From a virus: DNA of 25,046 nt. Each line of letters opens with the position of its first letter. Within the stretch, counting starts at the first letter, position 1. Where the stretch lies: the IMG/VR virus record IMGVR_UViG_3300018079_000116, positions 1 to 25,046 of that record, one strand, 5' to 3'. Positions 15,212-24,501 of this stretch are shown here, piece by piece. The notes beneath the pieces were generated by a model. It was given only the letters and a program-made list of their open reading frames with translations. It was not told the DNA's origin and searched no databases. Made by a program: the position numbers and the translations under genes.

Positions 15212-15523
15212 CTACCACCCCGGCAATCGCTTCTGCCCGGCGGCTTCTAATTTTGCGTTCTTGGCTGTAATTCGCTCTTTGCGTGCGACTGCATCTTCAT
15301 ACGGCTTGCGGCAGTCCTGACACAGCAACTTAAATCCGTTCGACACATAGCAATTCCGCACATCTGCCCGAAACGACATGGCGAGAGTATCATCATCGTT
15401 GCCCGTGCCACTGCCGTACCAATTCGCGCCGTCAGCAATATCAAGGCTGATGCGGTGATACAACTCTGGATGCCGCCAGTAAATCTCGTCATGAATAACC
15501 GCGCATTGCTCACAAATATTCAC
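15212..15523 (-). CDS. Small CxxC...CxxC protein
   Basis: The 103-residue protein (MNICEQCAVIHDEIYWRHPE) has two CxxC pairs, Cys4/Cys7 and Cys68/Cys71 (LLCQDCRKPYED), that could together hold one zinc, and a basic helical C-terminus (RKERITAKNAKLEAAGQKRL). Spacing between the pairs resembles small HNH or RNA-binding zinc proteins, but I see no HNH catalytic motif. It starts at GTG 15523, 14 bases inside the methyltransferase gene, with GAGGT eight bases upstream. The role is unknown. Confidence 0.6.
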   Translation of the reverse strand: MNICEQCAVIHDEIYWRHPELYHRISLDIADGANWYGSGTGNDDDTLAMSFRADVRNCYVSNGFKLLCQDCRKPYEDAVARKERITAKNAKLEAAGQKRLPGW

Positions 15524-16526
15524 GGCTCAGAACCTCACTTTCACTCAAAACATCAATGAGCATCTTAAAAATCGGATAAGCCACCTGCGGCACAACGGCA
15601 TTACCCAACGCCTTCACCCGATTGCGGCGATTCGGTATCTTGCCACATAGACGCGGTGGCTCGCCATCAAACTGCGATTCATTGGGACGTGCAGGAAATT
15701 GATGAGCCATCAGCCTATCTCCGTCCAGCCGGGCGGTAGACCTTGAAGCATCTCGATCCAAGCTGGATTCAACTGCGCGTCTGGAATTGCGGAGACTGCT
15801 CGAATTTGTGCCGAAAGCCCGTTTTCGGGTATCTGCGCGATAACCCCGTTCTTTAGAGCGTCGTTGGCGATAGGGGTATGCCAGTCTTGTTTCTGCTCGT
15901 AGTATTTGACTGTCTGACCGAGATTCACATACGATAAACCTGTCGGGTTGATGTATTTCAATGTCCCCGATTTCGTCACATGCGTCTTGTCCTCTGGTGG
16001 CATCTTGCGATTCTGAAAATCGTGTGCCGTTGGCGTAGCCCACACAGAACCATCGATTGCGCTGGTGCGGCGCTCCGGCATCGGCAGCCGATATAATGCC
16101 CCATTGCGCGTCATACCCCAATCCGGTAAGCGCCGCAACAACTTCAGTTCCCCCTCGTCCATCATAAGTAATTGCTGCAACATTCTCCAAGACAACAGCA
16201 GCGGGTCTAATCTCGCCAATAAGTCGGCAAAATTCCCACCATAGACCAGAATTCGCGCCTTCGAGACCGATACCTTTTCCAGCTTGAGAGATTTCGGTAC
16301 AGGGAAAGCCGCCGAAAAGGACATCAACGTATCCAAGTTCTTGTCCTGTAAGTCCTCGAATATCGGCAAACTGAGTTGCGTTACTCCAATAGTCTGCGGC
16401 ATGTTTCGCTAGTACCTTTCTGCAAAATTCGTCTATTTCGACCTGAAAGCGAATATCAAAGCCAGCCAGTGACGCTGCCAAATCCAGTCCACCAATACCA
16501 CTAAACAAACTCCCGGCTGTAATCAC
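15510..16526 (-). CDS. C5-cytosine DNA methyltransferase (Dcm-like)
   Basis: The 338-residue enzyme transfers a methyl group from S-adenosylmethionine to C5 of cytosine in DNA. Motif I is SLFSGIGGLDLA (residues 6-17), motif II lies at VEIDEFC, motif IV is FGGFPCTEIS with the catalytic Cys76, motif VI is VVLENVAAI (Glu114), and motif VIII is QRNRWFCVG (155-163). Motifs IX-X close the protein (RVKALGNAVVPQVAYPIF). Residues about 175-285 are Arg/Ser-rich without clear motifs. They occupy the target recognition region and coincide with an overprinted +1-frame ORF. The gene starts at GTG, overlapping the replication gene stop (GTGA). No cognate restriction enzyme is visible, so it is probably an orphan that protects phage DNA. 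Confidence 0.93.
   Translation of the reverse strand: MITAGSLFSGIGGLDLAASLAGFDIRFQVEIDEFCRKVLAKHAADYWSNATQFADIRGLTGQELGYVDVLFGGFPCTEISQAGKGIGLEGANSGLWWEFCRLIGEIRPAAVVLENVAAITYDGRGGTEVVAALTGLGYDAQWGIISAADAGAPHQRNRWFCVGYANGTRFSESQDATRGQDACDEIGDIEIHQPDRFIVCESRSDSQILRAETRLAYPYRQRRSKERGYRADTRKRAFGTNSSSLRNSRRAVESSLDRDASRSTARLDGDRLMAHQFPARPNESQFDGEPPRLCGKIPNRRNRVKALGNAVVPQVAYPIFKMLIDVLSESEVLSREYL
15710..16402 (-). CDS. Overprinted +1-frame ORF inside the methyltransferase gene
   Basis: This 230-codon frame lies wholly within the methyltransferase gene, +1 to it. Its product carries features I recognise from phage hypothetical proteins associated with such methyltransferases: SWRMLQ (71-76), GMTRNGALYRLP (96-107), WATPTAHDF (121-129), a second WHTPIANDA (174-182) and the ending QLNPAWIEMLQGLPPGWT (210-227). 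The methyltransferase frame is clearly constrained over its catalytic motifs, whereas this frame looks protein-like where the methyltransferase is motif-poor. The ATG at 16402 has only a distant AGAAAGG, so expression could be by coupling or frameshift. It could also be a fortuitous open frame; the matching motifs argue against that. Confidence 0.55.
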   Translation of the reverse strand: MPQTIGVTQLSLPIFEDLQDKNLDTLMSFSAAFPVPKSLKLEKVSVSKARILVYGGNFADLLARLDPLLLSWRMLQQLLMMDEGELKLLRRLPDWGMTRNGALYRLPMPERRTSAIDGSVWATPTAHDFQNRKMPPEDKTHVTKSGTLKYINPTGLSYVNLGQTVKYYEQKQDWHTPIANDALKNGVIAQIPENGLSAQIRAVSAIPDAQLNPAWIEMLQGLPPGWTEIG

Positions 16527-17746
16527 GGCTCAATAACCTCAAATCGAACACTCGCCTCACGACCTACCACATCGCGCAGAACTCGCGCCACATTGCGGTA
16601 AAACCGATGCTGCAACATATCCCGCGCATAACTGTTGTGAACGCCGACGACAAAACCATCAGCGCCATAATCCAGCAGTCGCGCCGAACGCAACCATGTA
16701 TCAAAGCTGGCTCTATCAAGCTGCAATTCCAACTGCTGGAAAGCGGCATTCCAAGCACGCTGCGCCGTGTAGCCATCGCTGACCATCACGGCTAATCGTT
16801 CATTCGCAGGTTCCGGCGCAGCATTGGCGACGGGTTTTAACTTTCGCAGTGTATCGCGCCAATCCGACTCCCCCACCCCACTATTTTCAGGCGAAATCGG
16901 CGGCTCTTGTGCCGGAATATCCGTTACAAACTCCCGCTCGTCTACGGGAGAGGGGCTAGGGGTGAGGGCTTTCGCTTGATTCTTCAACGCACCAACGAGA
17001 TACGCGACACGTTTCTCTGGACGCACGCGCTTGGCATCCACCGCACTCTGGACATCGGCAATACATACCCGCACAGCCGCCTCCGGCAGCAGCGCATACG
17101 TCACGGCGCGTTGCCCCGCAACCCCCGCTTTTTTCAGCAATTCAATCACGCGCAGCTGTGAGGGTTTGCTCTCCGGCAAGTCGCTTTTGAATTTAACAAT
17201 CTTTGGCAACAAAACAGGCGTGTCATTAACAACCGGTTCTTGTTCTTGTGTAGTTGTTCTTGTAGTGAATCTTGTTAATGTTGCGCTGGATTCCGACGTA
17301 ACGTTACGCTGGATTCCGACACAACGTTGTGCAAGATACATCGCTGGCAATCCAACAACATCCGCCAGCCGCCGCAAAAATTTCCACAGGTGCAGCGTGA
17401 AGTGCGTGGTATTCGCCTTGCCTGTGTGCTTGACCGTCATCAGCACGCCGCACTGCGGGAACACATCTTTTTTCACGCGGTCCACCACACTGCGTTTAAC
17501 CCGGCATTGCTGCCACCAATCTGCTTTCGAGAGGTAGAACTCGCGCCCTAGTCGCCCATGCCAGTACAGCACCCGCTTGAGCATTGACCCGGCGGCGGCA
17601 TCGTCATAGGCAAGCGCCGTCAGCAGGGCATCCAAGCTCCGGAACTCGCTGGTCTTGAGTGTTCTGACCAGCACTGCCAGACTGTCAAGTAGGTCTAGTA
17701 GGTCTAGCTGTGTTGAAGGGGTATCCACCGCTATGCGAGCTAACAT
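16523..17746 (-). CDS. Replication initiator-like protein with C-terminal DnaA domain I
   Basis: The 407-residue protein has a winged-helix-like N-terminal half (residues about 30-135: LDALLTALAYDDAAAGSMLK, KADWWQQCRVKRSVVDRVKK, TTHFTLHLWKF), a Ser/Thr/Gln-rich linker (about 140-190), a middle region, and a C-terminal 90 residues that match the N-terminal domain of bacterial DnaA (AWNAAFQQLELQLDRASFDT, WLRSARLL, HNSYARDMLQHRFY). In DnaA this domain binds the helicase DnaB, so the fusion may recruit host helicase to the phage origin. Two 23-bp repeats lie in the linker-coding part. A family A repeat gives ALTPSPSPVDERE near residue 265. The gene starts two bases after the parB-like stop and overlaps the methyltransferase. 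Confidence 0.7.
   Translation of the reverse strand: MLARIAVDTPSTQLDLLDLLDSLAVLVRTLKTSEFRSLDALLTALAYDDAAAGSMLKRVLYWHGRLGREFYLSKADWWQQCRVKRSVVDRVKKDVFPQCGVLMTVKHTGKANTTHFTLHLWKFLRRLADVVGLPAMYLAQRCVGIQRNVTSESSATLTRFTTRTTTQEQEPVVNDTPVLLPKIVKFKSDLPESKPSQLRVIELLKKAGVAGQRAVTYALLPEAAVRVCIADVQSAVDAKRVRPEKRVAYLVGALKNQAKALTPSPSPVDEREFVTDIPAQEPPISPENSGVGESDWRDTLRKLKPVANAAPEPANERLAVMVSDGYTAQRAWNAAFQQLELQLDRASFDTWLRSARLLDYGADGFVVGVHNSYARDMLQHRFYRNVARVLRDVVGREASVRFEVIEP
16931..16968. repeat. Family A palindrome in frame in the replication gene
   Basis: CTCCCGCTCGTC and TACGGGAGAGGGG arms are followed by CTAGGGGTGAGGG. It is translated as LTPSPSPVDERE in the linker ahead of the DnaA-like domain. Confidence 0.75.
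17284..17329. repeat. Two 23-bp direct repeats (candidate iterons/origin)
   Basis: Two adjacent copies of CGCTGGATTCCGAC followed by a palindrome centred on AACGTT (CGTAACGTTACG in one, CACAACGTTGTG in the other) lie within the linker-coding part of the replication gene. A third partial copy (CAACATT on the minus strand) adjoins at about 17277-17283. The 23-bp period is not a multiple of three, so the repeats are read in different frames and are not kept for protein sequence. A DnaA-box-like ATTTCCACA lies at 17380-17388. Position inside the initiator gene recalls lambdoid origins. Confidence 0.6.
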
Positions 17747-17748
17747 GA

Positions 17749-19767
17749 CTAATCCTTCTTCGCCATCTCAAGTGCCACTATCAGCACCTGTTGTAGATGG
17801 TCATTGATGCGCTGTTGAATCGCGTTCATGACTTCCTGCGTGGCGCGGCCGTAGCCCTTGACCATCTCTTCGACAGCCGCAATGCCGCCCTCTATGAGAA
17901 CCCGCTGCAGTCGCAGCTTGTCCAGTAGGTGCAAGTCAGCCAGCGCATCGACCCCCGGCGTGTCCAGCAGTCCGGCTAAAATTGCTATGCCATCAATCAC
18001 GTCAAGCGTGGTTTCGTCAAATGCCGGGAACGCCGCGGTATCGTCGGTGAGCATATCATCATCAATCACCACGTCCGCAGCATCGAGAATACGCCACACG
18101 GCATAATGGCTGATACTGCGTGCTACACCGTCATCATCAACGGAAAGCCACCGCGGATGACTATCCTTATTCACGCGCTTAATTTGCCAGCGCCGATACT
18201 CGTTGTCATGTATCCACGCGCCGACCACTAAATCATCCTTGCGAATCGGCGGATATGGCGACTTGACCTCAACTAATTGACCCGGTTCAAATCTTGCCGC
18301 GAGTGTGTCTTTGTACTTGCGTACCACCACCATATCGGATGCGATCCCTATTACCACAAATCGCTCATCCTTTGTTGAGCCGACAATTGATTCAACCAGC
18401 ATCCCGACTTGTAATGCGGGTGTGCCGTGCGCCATGCCGAAGGGCTCCCAGCGAGTCGGCGCATTTTGTTCCCCTCGCTCATCGAGAGCAGGATCCGGGG
18501 TGGGTGCCTTACTTGGCGGCTTAAACAAATCCAGCTTGTCGTTAGCGATTGCCACAATCTTGTGATACGGCACTTGCAACCGATAGCCCGCGGGCGTGCG
18601 GCAGATAAACGCCTCACCGCCATAGTGGACTTCCTCAATCAGCCAGTAGTCGCCCATGTCGCGCTTGATGACTGTGCCGACGGTCAGCAGTTCTTTGGCA
18701 ATCGCAGTTGCTTTCGTATCGTCACCATCTGAATTATGAGAGCCAGATGAGATGTTCGGCACGCCGAACCTTAATGCCGCGACTCTAAGGTCTTCGAGCG
18801 TGAACGACCTCTGTAAAACAATCGCACGCAATGTATCTAGCGGCAGTCTGCTGAAATCGACCAGCGCCCGGAATGCCCAATCTTCCTCATCGGCACGTAA
18901 CCAGAGGATGTCATTGACCCCATCGACCTCATTGTCATCCGTCAGTCGCAGCAGCGAGCGGTACTCGGCGATGGTATTGCGCTTGAGTCGCATGGCGGAT
19001 TGGATGCGTTCACTCATGCCCTTCGGTATCGGATGATGATTGCCGTTTGCCACCTGTGCGTAGAAGATGCGGTCACAACCCACGACTACATCCTCATAGC
19101 CGTTGTAATTGGTCTGTCCACCGCGCAAATCCATGATGAGCAGTGCCAATTGCCGCGCCTTCTCAATCGCGTTCAAATCGCTGCGCTGCATATTCTCGTG
19201 TGCCTGTCGCCATACGCTCTCGGACGACTTGCTTTCAATCGCGGGGATTTTGCCGTAGGTCTTATCGACAAGGTGATTGAGCAGGTGATACGCCAACCAG
19301 CGCCGTTCACCTGATTCGATGACATAGCTGCTGCCGCGGCGGATAATACTAATCGGATTCACCAGCCCATCACGCTGAATCGATTGCGCCAGTGTCAGCA
19401 GTGCCATGAATTCATCAAAGTGCGGATGGCTTGTCTCTGACTCGATACCGCCCCGTCCTTTGAGAATATCCATCACCGGAATCGTTGTGCCGGCTTTTTG
19501 CTCGGCGACAGTTTGCCAGTGGCTCAGCAGGTCAGCCACCTGTGCCGGGTTGCCATCCCAATTGCTGCGAATCAATCCGGGAACTGCGCGGCGCGGTTGC
19601 TGACGGTCTGCCCACACGCTCATGATATCGACAGGTTTGCCAATCATGCGCCCTGTGTCTAAATCCGGATTGGGCTTAATCGACCCGTAGGTTGTCTCGT
19701 CCAACTTCTGAATATCAACCTCATCCGTAAATGCCGCACGTTTGACTGCTTTGTTACGCTGTGACAT
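17749..19767 (-). CDS. Large ParB-like partition/nuclease-domain protein
   Basis: The 672-residue protein has an N-terminal ParB/Spo0J-type domain: a box I-like DRQQPRRAVP (55-63), SIQRDGLVNPISII (129-142), VIESGERRWLAYHLL (149-163, the GERR box) and ENMQRSDLNAIEKARQLALL (191-210). A helix-turn-helix region follows (SERIQSAMRLKRNTIAEYRS). The C-terminal half is unusual: it carries several SH3-like beta segments (VGTVIKRDMGDYWLIEEVHY, LQVGMLVESIVGSTKDERFV, RKDDLVVGAWIHDNEYRRWQ) and an acidic end. The ATG at 19767 was chosen for AGAGGGA upstream and its 14-base overlap with parA. It would bind a centromere site and load ParA. A degenerate family A repeat adds PTPDPALDERGE. Confidence 0.75.
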   Translation of the reverse strand: MSQRNKAVKRAAFTDEVDIQKLDETTYGSIKPNPDLDTGRMIGKPVDIMSVWADRQQPRRAVPGLIRSNWDGNPAQVADLLSHWQTVAEQKAGTTIPVMDILKGRGGIESETSHPHFDEFMALLTLAQSIQRDGLVNPISIIRRGSSYVIESGERRWLAYHLLNHLVDKTYGKIPAIESKSSESVWRQAHENMQRSDLNAIEKARQLALLIMDLRGGQTNYNGYEDVVVGCDRIFYAQVANGNHHPIPKGMSERIQSAMRLKRNTIAEYRSLLRLTDDNEVDGVNDILWLRADEEDWAFRALVDFSRLPLDTLRAIVLQRSFTLEDLRVAALRFGVPNISSGSHNSDGDDTKATAIAKELLTVGTVIKRDMGDYWLIEEVHYGGEAFICRTPAGYRLQVPYHKIVAIANDKLDLFKPPSKAPTPDPALDERGEQNAPTRWEPFGMAHGTPALQVGMLVESIVGSTKDERFVVIGIASDMVVVRKYKDTLAARFEPGQLVEVKSPYPPIRKDDLVVGAWIHDNEYRRWQIKRVNKDSHPRWLSVDDDGVARSISHYAVWRILDAADVVIDDDMLTDDTAAFPAFDETTLDVIDGIAILAGLLDTPGVDALADLHLLDKLRLQRVLIEGGIAAVEEMVKGYGRATQEVMNAIQQRINDHLQQVLIVALEMAKKD
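18471..18505. repeat. Degenerate family A repeat in the parB-like gene
   Basis: CCCCTCGCTCATCGAGAGC is followed by GGATCCGGGGTGGGTG. It encodes APTPDPALDERGE in frame, at a point between the ParB domain and an SH3-like segment. Confidence 0.5.
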
Positions 19768-20551
19768 AAATCCCTCTTTCCACTTGCTGGACGAGTGACC
19801 AGCATTCCTCGGTTGCTTCACTACCGGCGTCTAGTTTCCACACAGGTAACGCCGTGCCTTCGGTTTCGGTCCACAACGTCCGCAAGGGAATCGGACTCCA
19901 TACCTTGTCGCCGAATTGCTGCTTGAGTTTCGCCAGATTGTCAATTTGTTCTTTGGTCGATGTCCGAAATTTCATCGGCACGATGCCCAAGACTTCAATC
20001 GGTGGCAGGTCATAAAAGCGTTTGCGCCCGCCGTCCGCACCTTGCTTTGACTTGATGCTCTCGCTGAGACCATCGAAACTGCTGTAGGCGAGTTCGGTTG
20101 GAATCAGCACATAATCCGATGCCACAAAGAACGTGGCGTGCAGCAGCGACGGCGTGGGCGATGTATCAATCACCACCAAATCAATCTTGCCCGCATCGCG
20201 CAATTCATCCAGGCGCCGGGCAAATATCGCGCCGTCATTCGTAGTATTCGCAATGTTGCGCGTCTCTTTATTGCTCGGCAGGACATACAATTTCCCGGCA
20301 CGCCACGCCGGGACGCTGTAGCGTTCGCTGTCCACCTGCCGCGTCAGTTCCGACCACTCACCATCGCGGATGAGCAGGTCATACAGTCCTGCCGACTTCG
20401 GGAAACCGCAGCGCAGTGTCGCGTGTCCCTGTGCATCGGCATCCACCAGCAGCACATTATGTCCCTGTGCTGCCAGCCCCGCGCTGATATGCGTGGCGAG
20501 TGTCGTCTTGCCGACCCCGCCTTTTTCATTCAACAATGTGATAACTTTCAC
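19754..20551 (-). CDS. parA: ParA-family partition ATPase
   Basis: The 265-residue protein is a deviant Walker ATPase that positions DNA along the nucleoid together with ParB. It has the signature KGGVGKTT (residues 10-17, including the first lysine), LLVDADAQGHATL (motif A'), and DLVVIDTSPTPSLLHAT (Walker B). There is no N-terminal helix-turn-helix, so it is the short form, which usually leaves repression to the partner or upstream DNA. It starts at GTG 20551 with GGAAGG five bases upstream. The gene lies directly upstream of the parB-like gene and overlaps it. Partition genes in a phage point to a plasmid-like lysogenic state at some stage. Confidence 0.92.
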   Translation of the reverse strand: MKVITLLNEKGGVGKTTLATHISAGLAAQGHNVLLVDADAQGHATLRCGFPKSAGLYDLLIRDGEWSELTRQVDSERYSVPAWRAGKLYVLPSNKETRNIANTTNDGAIFARRLDELRDAGKIDLVVIDTSPTPSLLHATFFVASDYVLIPTELAYSSFDGLSESIKSKQGADGGRKRFYDLPPIEVLGIVPMKFRTSTKEQIDNLAKLKQQFGDKVWSPIPLRTLWTETEGTALPVWKLDAGSEATEECWSLVQQVERGIYVTA

Positions 20552-22007: not shown

Positions 22008-23464
22008 GCCTGTCCTCCTGCCGCCAGTACCATGCTCGGCACAAATCGTTCCTCTGTACTCGCTGCCCGATACCGACTAAGCCGCTCATCAGCCGCTTGT
22101 CGTGCAACTGCCAGCACCTCAGCATTGCCAGCCGCGATAACATCCTCGACTAGCGCATTGCCGCGCAGCAAGTCCTCGAATGAGTTGTGTTCGTCAACCA
22201 GTGACGGAATCGGCTCAGTCTTTTCATCGGTGAACAGGGTCGTGGGCGACGGCTCACAACCAATCAGGTGTGTGAAGCGATACAGTTGCGGCGTTAGATT
22301 ACCCGCCTGTATCTCAGTCGTAATCGCCGCAATTTGATACCCCTGCGGAATTTCAACATCATTGAAGCCACCACCGCCACCCATGGTCATGAGTGTCCGC
22401 AACTTCTGCCTCCCCTCTCCATCGATGTGCGCGGTACGAGTCATCGGCAATGGAGCGGGGTCGGGGGAGAGGTTAGCCTGGTTCGGCAGGGGAGTCGCAG
22501 CCGTCTTCAACAACTTCACTTGCTGCTGATTAGTCGCCTCAAGCCGCTGGATTTTCTTCCGCGCATCCGCTAATTCCGCCGTCAACTTTCCGGCATCCTC
22601 AATCGCCTTCATAATTTCATCCGGCACCTGCCCTATCGCACCAGCTTGGTACTTATCCAACTCACGGTGCAGTACGGTCAGGTCTAAATGCGCCGAGTCC
22701 AATGCGCGTTGCAGTTGGACGTTATCGCGCCGCAACGCCTTGAACGTGTGTTCGTTTATCTCTCCTCCTGGTTCGGGAGAGGGGTCAGGGGTTGCCGCGT
22801 CATCCGCCACAACCGCCTCGCAGTGGTCGAGGATATACACCTGCTTGCCGTTTAGGGTGCGGAAAACAGTCGCACCGCGATAACGGTCTGCTTTGAAGCC
22901 GAGATCATTACCTACCTGTGCAACTGTCCCCTCATCACCCTCATCTAATGGATACTGGTCGTGCGGCAAATCACAGAGCAACCGCGCCCGTTCGCCAGCA
23001 CCCCATGTATGTAGCTGCGCTTCATCGACTTTTTGCGGCTGGTTTGCCTTTTGCAACCACAGGTGAACATCTTGTTCGCTCAGTGTGAACGCCTCACCGC
23101 TTGCAGAGAAGTCGGTTAGATTTGCCCCGCTCCCCGCCTGCAATTTGACATCCGTTTTCCAGCGCCCAATGACTTTCACCGTTTCACCCGCTTCATTCGT
23201 AAGCAGCGTGTCGATGGGGTATAAGTCATCGGTAGGGACACACAACGGCGTGTCCGTTAACGGCGTGTCCGCAGGGGAACTGACAGGCGCAGTAAGGCGT
23301 TGCAAATCACCGACACTGATCCATCCAGCGCGGCGACTCGGCGTATAAGGGAATGTCACCTTAACTGATTTGCCATGTGTGGCGACGGCAACTACCTCGC
23401 CCTCCGCGCCGTGGTGTTTCACCTTATCCCCTACGGCAAGACTACGATTACCCAACTCACCCAT
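22004..23464 (-). CDS. First gene of the early operon: SH3-like and coiled-coil protein of unknown function
   Basis: The 486-residue protein opens with a KOW/SH3-like segment (VGDKVKHHGAEGEVVAVATH) and has another beta segment at LDEGDEGTVAQVGNDLGFKA. Residues about 240-325 form a helical, probably coiled-coil region (ALRRDNVQLQRALDSAHLDL, IEDAGKLTAELADARKKIQR). The C-terminal 100 residues are mixed. Three mini-repeats lie in frame: family C (DTPLTDTPLCVPT, near residue 70) and two family A copies (TPDPSPEPGGE and LSPDPAPL...HIDGEGR). The ATG at 23464 has GGAGGG eight bases upstream. It is the first gene leftwards from the divergent promoter region. SH3-like parts resemble those in the ParB-like protein. 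I do not recognise it. Confidence 0.65.
   Translation of the reverse strand: MGELGNRSLAVGDKVKHHGAEGEVVAVATHGKSVKVTFPYTPSRRAGWISVGDLQRLTAPVSSPADTPLTDTPLCVPTDDLYPIDTLLTNEAGETVKVIGRWKTDVKLQAGSGANLTDFSASGEAFTLSEQDVHLWLQKANQPQKVDEAQLHTWGAGERARLLCDLPHDQYPLDEGDEGTVAQVGNDLGFKADRYRGATVFRTLNGKQVYILDHCEAVVADDAATPDPSPEPGGEINEHTFKALRRDNVQLQRALDSAHLDLTVLHRELDKYQAGAIGQVPDEIMKAIEDAGKLTAELADARKKIQRLEATNQQQVKLLKTAATPLPNQANLSPDPAPLPMTRTAHIDGEGRQKLRTLMTMGGGGGFNDVEIPQGYQIAAITTEIQAGNLTPQLYRFTHLIGCEPSPTTLFTDEKTEPIPSLVDEHNSFEDLLRGNALVEDVIAAGNAEVLAVARQAADERLSRYRAASTEERFVPSMVLAAGGQA
22411..22472. repeat. Family A repeat in the 486-residue protein gene (copy 1)
   Basis: TCCCCTCTCCATCGATG and CATCGGCAATGGAGCGGGG arms are followed by TCGGGGGAGAGG. 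It is read as LSPDPAPLPMTRTAHIDGEG within the protein, just after the coiled coil. Confidence 0.65.
22761..22793. repeat. Family A repeat in the 486-residue protein gene (copy 2)
   Basis: TCTCCTCCTGGTTC and GGGAGAGGGG are followed by TCAGGGGTTG. It encodes TPDPSPEPGGE at the boundary between the SH3-like part and the coiled coil. Confidence 0.6.
23232..23271. repeat. 40-bp mini-repeat (family C), second full copy
   Basis: The element begins GTAGGGACACACAACGGCGT and ends GTTAACGGCGTGTCCG. It differs from 2914-2953 at three positions and is translated in the same phase as DTPLTDTPLCVPT. It lies within the gene for the 486-residue protein. Confidence 0.8.
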
Positions 23465-23541
23465 CTGTTTACCCTCCGTTCCGCTTATTTTTTAATATAG
23501 TTAATAACATCTTAAAAACTTTATTGATGGAGTACCGCACT
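23465..23541. promoter_or_regulatory. Divergent AT-rich promoter/operator region
   Basis: The 77 bases between the leftward early operon and the rightward integrase gene are strongly AT-rich and hold a GTTAATAAC palindrome (about 23500-23508) next to TATA-like sequence. Ribosome binding sites for both genes lie at its edges: GGAGGG for the leftward gene and GGAG nine bases before the integrase ATG. Divergent promoters are inferred from layout; exact -35/-10 boxes are not certain. Confidence 0.5.
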
Positions 23542-24501
23542 ATGTTACTGCGCGAAGCGATTGACATCTGGTTGTCGCAACACATCGCCACCACCCGTGA
23601 AAGTTATTCCCGCCCCATTACCTACATGCTCAATCGTGTCGGCGCGGAACTCGAACTGGATGACATCACACCCGCCGATATGGTGCGCTACTCGCGCTAC
23701 ATCTTGGAGCGTGAGGATTACGCCATCAAGACCAAAGAGAAGCACATCAAAACCACTAAGACCTTCTTTAATTGGCTGGTCAAAATGGATTTCTTGCTCA
23801 AGTCCCCGGCTCGTGTTCTCAAGACCCCCAAGGTGCCGCGCCGCGTCAACCGCGAAAAGGCGATAACCGATGCTGACCTTGAAGTGTTGCTGGCTTATCT
23901 CCAACTCGACCAGAGCGCGGCAGGTGTTCGCAACTATGCGCTTGTGCGCTTCCTTGCTGATACGGGCGCACGCGGTGGCGGGGTAGTCGGCTTAAAAATC
24001 GTCAACCTCTTCCTCAATGAGATGTATGCGCTCATAGTTGAAAAGGGGAATAAGGCACGCAAAGTTGCTTTCTCGGAAGAGTGCGCCCGTGCGCTGCGTG
24101 TGTGGCTACTGCGCCGCCCCGCCATCAAATCAGCTTATGTCTTCCTGTCGCTGCGTGGCAAAAACAAAAAGCTAACCGTGAATTATGTCGGCACGATTCT
24201 GTTTCGGGCGGTGCAGTACGTGAAGCGCGATTGGGGCTACACCATCCAGCGTGCTAATCCGCACAGTATGCGCCATCGTATCGGTCATAAAATGGCTGAT
24301 GAGCGTGAAACACCACGGGCGATTGCCGATGCTCTGGGGCATGAGCGCATCATGACCGCTCAAGAGAGTTACGTCGATTACGACTTTGAAGATATTGCCG
24401 AGAAAGTCCGCCGTCATTCACTGGCTGGTCAGCGTCCCAGATCAGCCGAAGAAAAGATTATCGACCTCACAAACCTTGATGACCGTTTCGGGACAAAATA
24501 A
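23542..24501 (+). CDS. int: Tyrosine recombinase (phage integrase)
   Basis: The 319-residue enzyme carries out site-specific integration and excision. An N-terminal SAM-like core-binding domain (residues 1-95: LREAIDIWLSQHIATTRESY) precedes the catalytic domain. Catalytic residues are visible: Arg144 in LADTGARGGGVVGL, a Lys in VEKGNKARKV, His241 and Arg244 in HSMRHRIGHKM, His267 in ALGHERI, and the nucleophile Tyr277 in ESYVDYDF. I chose the ATG at 23542 because GGAG lies nine bases upstream; the frame is open further upstream but that part overlaps the divergent gene and region. The gene ends about 23 bases before the tRNA-like attachment site. Confidence 0.93.
   Translation: MLLREAIDIWLSQHIATTRESYSRPITYMLNRVGAELELDDITPADMVRYSRYILEREDYAIKTKEKHIKTTKTFFNWLVKMDFLLKSPARVLKTPKVPRRVNREKAITDADLEVLLAYLQLDQSAAGVRNYALVRFLADTGARGGGVVGLKIVNLFLNEMYALIVEKGNKARKVAFSEECARALRVWLLRRPAIKSAYVFLSLRGKNKKLTVNYVGTILFRAVQYVKRDWGYTIQRANPHSMRHRIGHKMADERETPRAIADALGHERIMTAQESYVDYDFEDIAEKVRRHSLAGQRPRSAEEKIIDLTNLDDRFGTK

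Follow-up and report, generated by a model that had tools for sequence, protein, structure and literature searches.

A single stretch of DNA within the window, which is a whole viral record of 25,046 nucleotides, appears to encode two proteins in two nested reading frames, most likely joining into a single DNA cytosine methyltransferase. Judged from sequence and predicted structure, this locus very probably represents one heterodimeric C5-cytosine DNA methyltransferase (C5-MTase) with a large subunit, alpha, and a small subunit, beta. The best reading of the pair is a two-subunit C5-MTase of the M.EcoHK31I type, an already known kind. The relevant features are listed below.

15510..16526, minus strand: alpha ORF, putative C5-cytosine DNA methyltransferase large subunit; 338 aa, GTG start, motifs I-VIII and X
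15710..16402, minus strand: beta ORF, putative small subunit; 230 aa, ATG start, inside alpha in the +1 frame
16488..16514, minus strand: alpha motif I (GSLFSGIGG), near-invariant in alignments A2 and A6
16287..16313, minus strand: alpha motif IV with the predicted catalytic Cys76 (GGFPC); G73, P75 and C76 invariant
16187..16189, minus strand: beta Trp72 codon (TGG), over the Leu-Glu junction of alpha motif VI; xTG codon preference
16179..16187, minus strand: alpha motif VI (ENV); E114 and N115 invariant
16053..16067, minus strand: alpha motif VIII (HQRNR); downstream of it, constraint passes from alpha to beta (positional substitution profile)
15722..15772, minus strand: beta C-terminal motif LNPAWIEMLQGLPPGWT, candidate equivalent of motif IX, near-invariant in the beta alignments
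15573..15620, minus strand: alpha motif X (RVKALGNAVVPQVAYP), past the beta stop; G308, N309 and P313 near-invariant

The initial annotation had placed a 230-codon frame wholly within the methyltransferase gene, and this frame is indeed present at 15710..16402, on the minus strand. All of the motifs that were quoted at the time could be located, and the description of the methyltransferase frame as motif-poor downstream holds after QRNRW until KALGNAVVPQ. The beta start is offset from the alpha start by 124 nt, which corresponds to the +1 frame. Read from stop to stop, the +1 ORF comprises 232 codons, compared to a mean longest ORF of 95 codons upon synonymous-codon shuffling of alpha, and an equally long +1 ORF was obtained in 4 of 20,000 such shuffles. 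The +1 frame is thus more open than expected by chance, and the other sense frame of alpha displays unremarkable openness under the same shuffling.

Alpha matches PF00145 with E=5.2e-43 and belongs to the C5-cytosine DNA methyltransferases by its motifs I, IV, VI, VIII and X as well as by its predicted fold. Alignments for structure prediction were built without rows from annotated phage records. The AlphaFold model of alpha has pLDDT values of 80-98 over residues 1-170 and mostly below 50 over residues 178-310, which appear mostly disordered; the C-terminal helix of motif X is again confident (pLDDT about 92). Foldseek analysis of this model displays M.HhaI as the best match (E=3e-15). Residues 10-179 of M.HhaI are matched by the alpha profile, and residues 300-318 weakly so. 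Because the profile skips the part in between, the segment of the target-recognition domain (TRD) and motif IX is considered absent from alpha; alpha is not of the one-chain type of C5-MTase, in which both are part of a single polypeptide. The spacing between motifs VIII and X of alpha can be as short as 67 residues (locus L009), compared to about 120 in M.HhaI. M.HhaI and other one-chain C5-MTases have the fold in common with the alpha core, but also house the TRD and motif IX on that one chain and have no nested frame.

Beta matches phrog_1008 (6.9e-17), which is labelled DNA methyltransferase, and has no match among the Pfam and NCBIfam families. Its best-conserved residues include the TP motifs and the C-terminal LNPxWVEWLMGxPIGWT. 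When the profile of the staggered beta forms (see below) is compared with one-chain C5-MTases, LNP-GWT lies opposite motif IX and motif X lies opposite motif X, in a weak alignment with a probability of 17%. Folded alone, beta yields a model of low confidence (pTM 0.40), for which Foldseek returned no useful PDB structure match, and no solved C5-MTase was found among the beta profile matches. As beta is poorly folded by itself and unmatched, we infer its possession of a TRD, and consider it probable that the TRD sits in beta. The xTP modules of the beta family, most of them W-TP-x-A-x-D, can number seven at most, and close relatives (L050 and L072) differ in how many they have. These modules are perhaps specificity units.

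The first seven relatives all contain a beta ORF in the +1 frame, and scans of viral contigs and genomes with beta alignments yielded 160 further loci. The resulting set of 169 loci takes in the window's own copy twice (L004, L005). At every one of them the best beta ORF lies +1 to an overlapping methyltransferase ORF, with no case of a shared frame or of a solitary beta. The genome loci map to 15 bacterial phyla and one archaeal phylum, and many phages are also among the 169. Forms of beta that lack the C-terminal motif would be missed, because the loci were collected via that motif. A search of viral contigs with a single beta sequence gave no match, and fixed patterns were too specific, an alignment being required as query; tblastn of the window's beta against plasmids gave no match either. 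One-chain methyltransferases of the same genomes served as controls: a beta match was found in 0 of 19, and no +1 ORF was strongly beyond its shuffles (lowest fraction 0.03). Beta is present at the loci with alpha-type genes in those control genomes.

Two loci, L040 and L054, were left out as evidence, since they look like frameshifted or decayed copies. Their LNP-WLMGWPIGWT motif falls in the alpha frame, which may reflect decay, sequencing error or frame exchange. Locus L076 (2378-4030) seems to be a natural fusion, its beta frame continuing into an apparent second DNA methyltransferase of the N4/N6 type (TSPPYW motif). Five identical copies of the pair (L152, L153, L156, L157, L158) are present on one Roseovarius chromosome and probably lie in repeated prophages.

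At least eight loci are staggered (L036, L050, L068, L072, L074, L077, L140, L145): in these, alpha terminates shortly after motif VIII, and motifs IX and X are both read in beta. The two annotated methylase genes of Gordonia phage Upyo also read as staggered once the beta frame is extended upstream. Because the staggered alphas retain almost nothing past motif VIII, the TRD must be in beta, if the enzyme has one; and since beta holds motifs IX and X there, the staggered form fits a division with motif IX in beta. On a quick FastTree tree of alpha motifs I-VIII, with long branches and modest support, one change separates the split enzymes from the one-chain controls, and at least 7 changes are needed between nested and staggered forms. 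Hence, motif X seems to have switched frames repeatedly, motif IX having stayed in beta. For the family as a whole we lean, with some reservation, towards a reading in which the nested +1 gene supplies TRD and motif IX across at least 15 bacterial phyla and phages, alpha past motif VIII is a stop-free linker, and motif X moved between frames several times. As motif X would have moved between them, the two frames would trade modules of one enzyme.

In the +1 geometry, alpha position 3 is beta position 2, and alpha position 1 is beta position 3. Among 33 independent pairs, changes after motif VIII amount to 0.355, 0.205 and 0.264 at alpha positions 1, 2 and 3, with position 1 exceeding position 3 in 25 of the 33; both in the stretch up to motif VIII and outside the overlap, the most variable position of these pairs is alpha position 3. 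Comparison of the window with locus L006 gives 0.56/0.28/0.29 at alpha positions 1/2/3 after motif VIII, and 0.29/0.17/0.67 past the stop codon of beta. In its substitutions, the DNA downstream of motif VIII behaves as beta-coding and not as alpha-coding sequence.

Such a change of frame in the constraint at motif VIII would also fit programmed ribosomal frameshifting near this motif, joining alpha motifs I-VIII to the C-terminal half of beta and leaving the N-terminal part of beta untranslated; frameshifting of this kind at the staggered loci would yield a methyltransferase with all of motifs I-X. However, the beta frame is selected upstream of motif VIII as well. Where Val, Leu or Met precedes the Glu of motif VI, the alpha codon is xTG in 94 of 98 loci, compared to 41% expected, which retains Trp72 of beta; ordinary one-chain C5-MTases of the same genomes lack this Trp-keeping nested frame. 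Changes at four-fold sites of alpha are likewise fewer, with 0.225 and 0.147 in the overlap parts and 0.301 and 0.412 outside (Fisher p=4e-5 and 8e-13). As the retention of Trp72 amounts to selection on the N-terminal part of beta too, a pure frameshift model is disfavoured. Further points speak against it: of 127 classifiable non-redundant loci, 51 have a start codon for the beta frame at four bases past that of alpha (NTGAATG type), a distance that suggests shared initiation, and M.EcoHK31I consists of two polypeptides (PMC3404938). We regard frameshifting as very improbable. The substitution patterns indicate that beta is a real gene and that both frames are under selection.

Beta might instead be translated but work alone, with an anti-restriction or regulatory role for instance, and not as a methyltransferase subunit; it lacks a Pfam or NCBIfam match, and the label of phrog_1008 may merely reflect the location of its members. 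This appears very improbable, given an alpha without motif IX and TRD, a beta with a C-terminal motif IX-like sequence and, in the staggered loci, motif X, and 0 of 169 loci with beta but no alpha. The initial annotation had envisaged a widespread overlapping pair, the second product of which either assists target recognition or acts independently. Its view of a widespread pair is borne out by a frame open at 169 of 169 loci, by fewer synonymous changes in the overlap and by some homologues that reach beyond the methyltransferase gene. Assistance in target recognition fits the second product best, and independent action is not supported, given an alpha lacking motif IX and TRD. A chance or composition-driven opening that shadows conserved alpha residues is refuted, as conservation of alpha motifs can by itself force some +1 similarity, but not the shuffling result (4 of 20,000), the beta-like substitution pattern, the retention of LNP-GWT where the overlying alpha residues are unrelated, or the lack of such a frame in one-chain control methyltransferases.

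For the heterodimeric C5-MTase, we hypothesize that motifs I-VIII of alpha would form the AdoMet-binding catalytic core, to which motif X is joined by a poorly structured linker. Beta, with a start of its own within alpha, would bring motif IX and most likely the TRD, and both subunits would come together on DNA in the manner of the single-chain M.HhaI. Heterodimer formation, the TRD in beta, activity and biological role are all features that we infer.

The 25-kb viral record contains portal, terminase, head, integrase and ParA/ParB-like genes. Just upstream of alpha, at 16523-17746 (minus), a 407-aa protein with a C-terminal DnaA N-terminal domain (PF11638, E=9.6e-7, residues 330-390) is encoded, which could be an initiator of phage replication. 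Partition genes, ParB-like and ParA-like, are located at 17749-20551 (minus) and the integrase at 23377-24501 (plus); given these genes, the phage may be maintained as a plasmid or prophage. As the scan of neighbouring genes revealed no recognisable restriction enzyme, the predicted methyltransferase probably methylates phage DNA against host restriction.

Lee, Kam and Shaw reportedly described in 1995 that the beta gene of M.EcoHK31I is contained in the alpha gene and read in another frame. M.EcoHK31I (YGGCCR) comprises two polypeptides; motifs I-VIII and X and a predicted TRD are in the larger one, and motif IX is in the smaller (PMC3404938). Likened on the basis of this published description, the window pair splits its motifs in the same way (I-VIII and X in the large subunit, IX in the small one), motif IX being assigned by pattern, position and a weak profile alignment, and its small-subunit gene also lies inside the large-subunit gene in another frame. 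The TRD of M.EcoHK31I is predicted in the large subunit, whereas the evidence for the window pair points to beta; a TRD in alpha, the 1995-type placement, was judged less likely here. M.AquI (CYCGRG) is split into two polypeptides as well, the small one consisting of the distal variable region and motifs IX-X (PMC3404938), and the staggered loci split their motifs likewise. The window pair differs from M.AquI in being nested and in having motif X in alpha.

Annotated nested +1 pairs are found in Paenibacillus phage Diva (gp49 and gp50, 'g49 internal gene'), with the same motifs and an identity to the window pair of about a third, and in Escherichia phage K1ind2 (GU196280), as ORF29 (C-specific methylase) and ORF28 (Mte8-like protein). 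The K1ind2 beta ends in QLNPAHSRWLMGYPPEW; this pair is divergent in sequence from that of the window and belongs to a different phage group. Mte8 in the K1ind2 annotation is presumably EcoHK31I. The kind is already known, since M.EcoHK31I is published (PMC3404938) and nested pairs are annotated in Diva and K1ind2. Within a limited search of the literature, no statement was found of how broad the family is, of its staggered forms or of the evidence for selection on the beta frame after motif VIII.

The arrangement is far wider than its one well-studied example, M.EcoHK31I, suggests, and this example is turned into a broad, testable family of nested pairs, in which the selected reading frame can be mapped codon by codon. 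To the known kind, the analysis adds that the TRD is probably in beta and that motif X apparently changed frame repeatedly. It offers an explanation for the truncated look of many phage C5-methyltransferases, the Pfam matches of which end near position 165 of 324, and for beta being mostly unannotated or labelled hypothetical. Cloning alpha by itself, or recoding it, would abolish beta. Should the TRD be in beta, the target specificity of these enzymes would be encoded in a frame that most annotations ignore.
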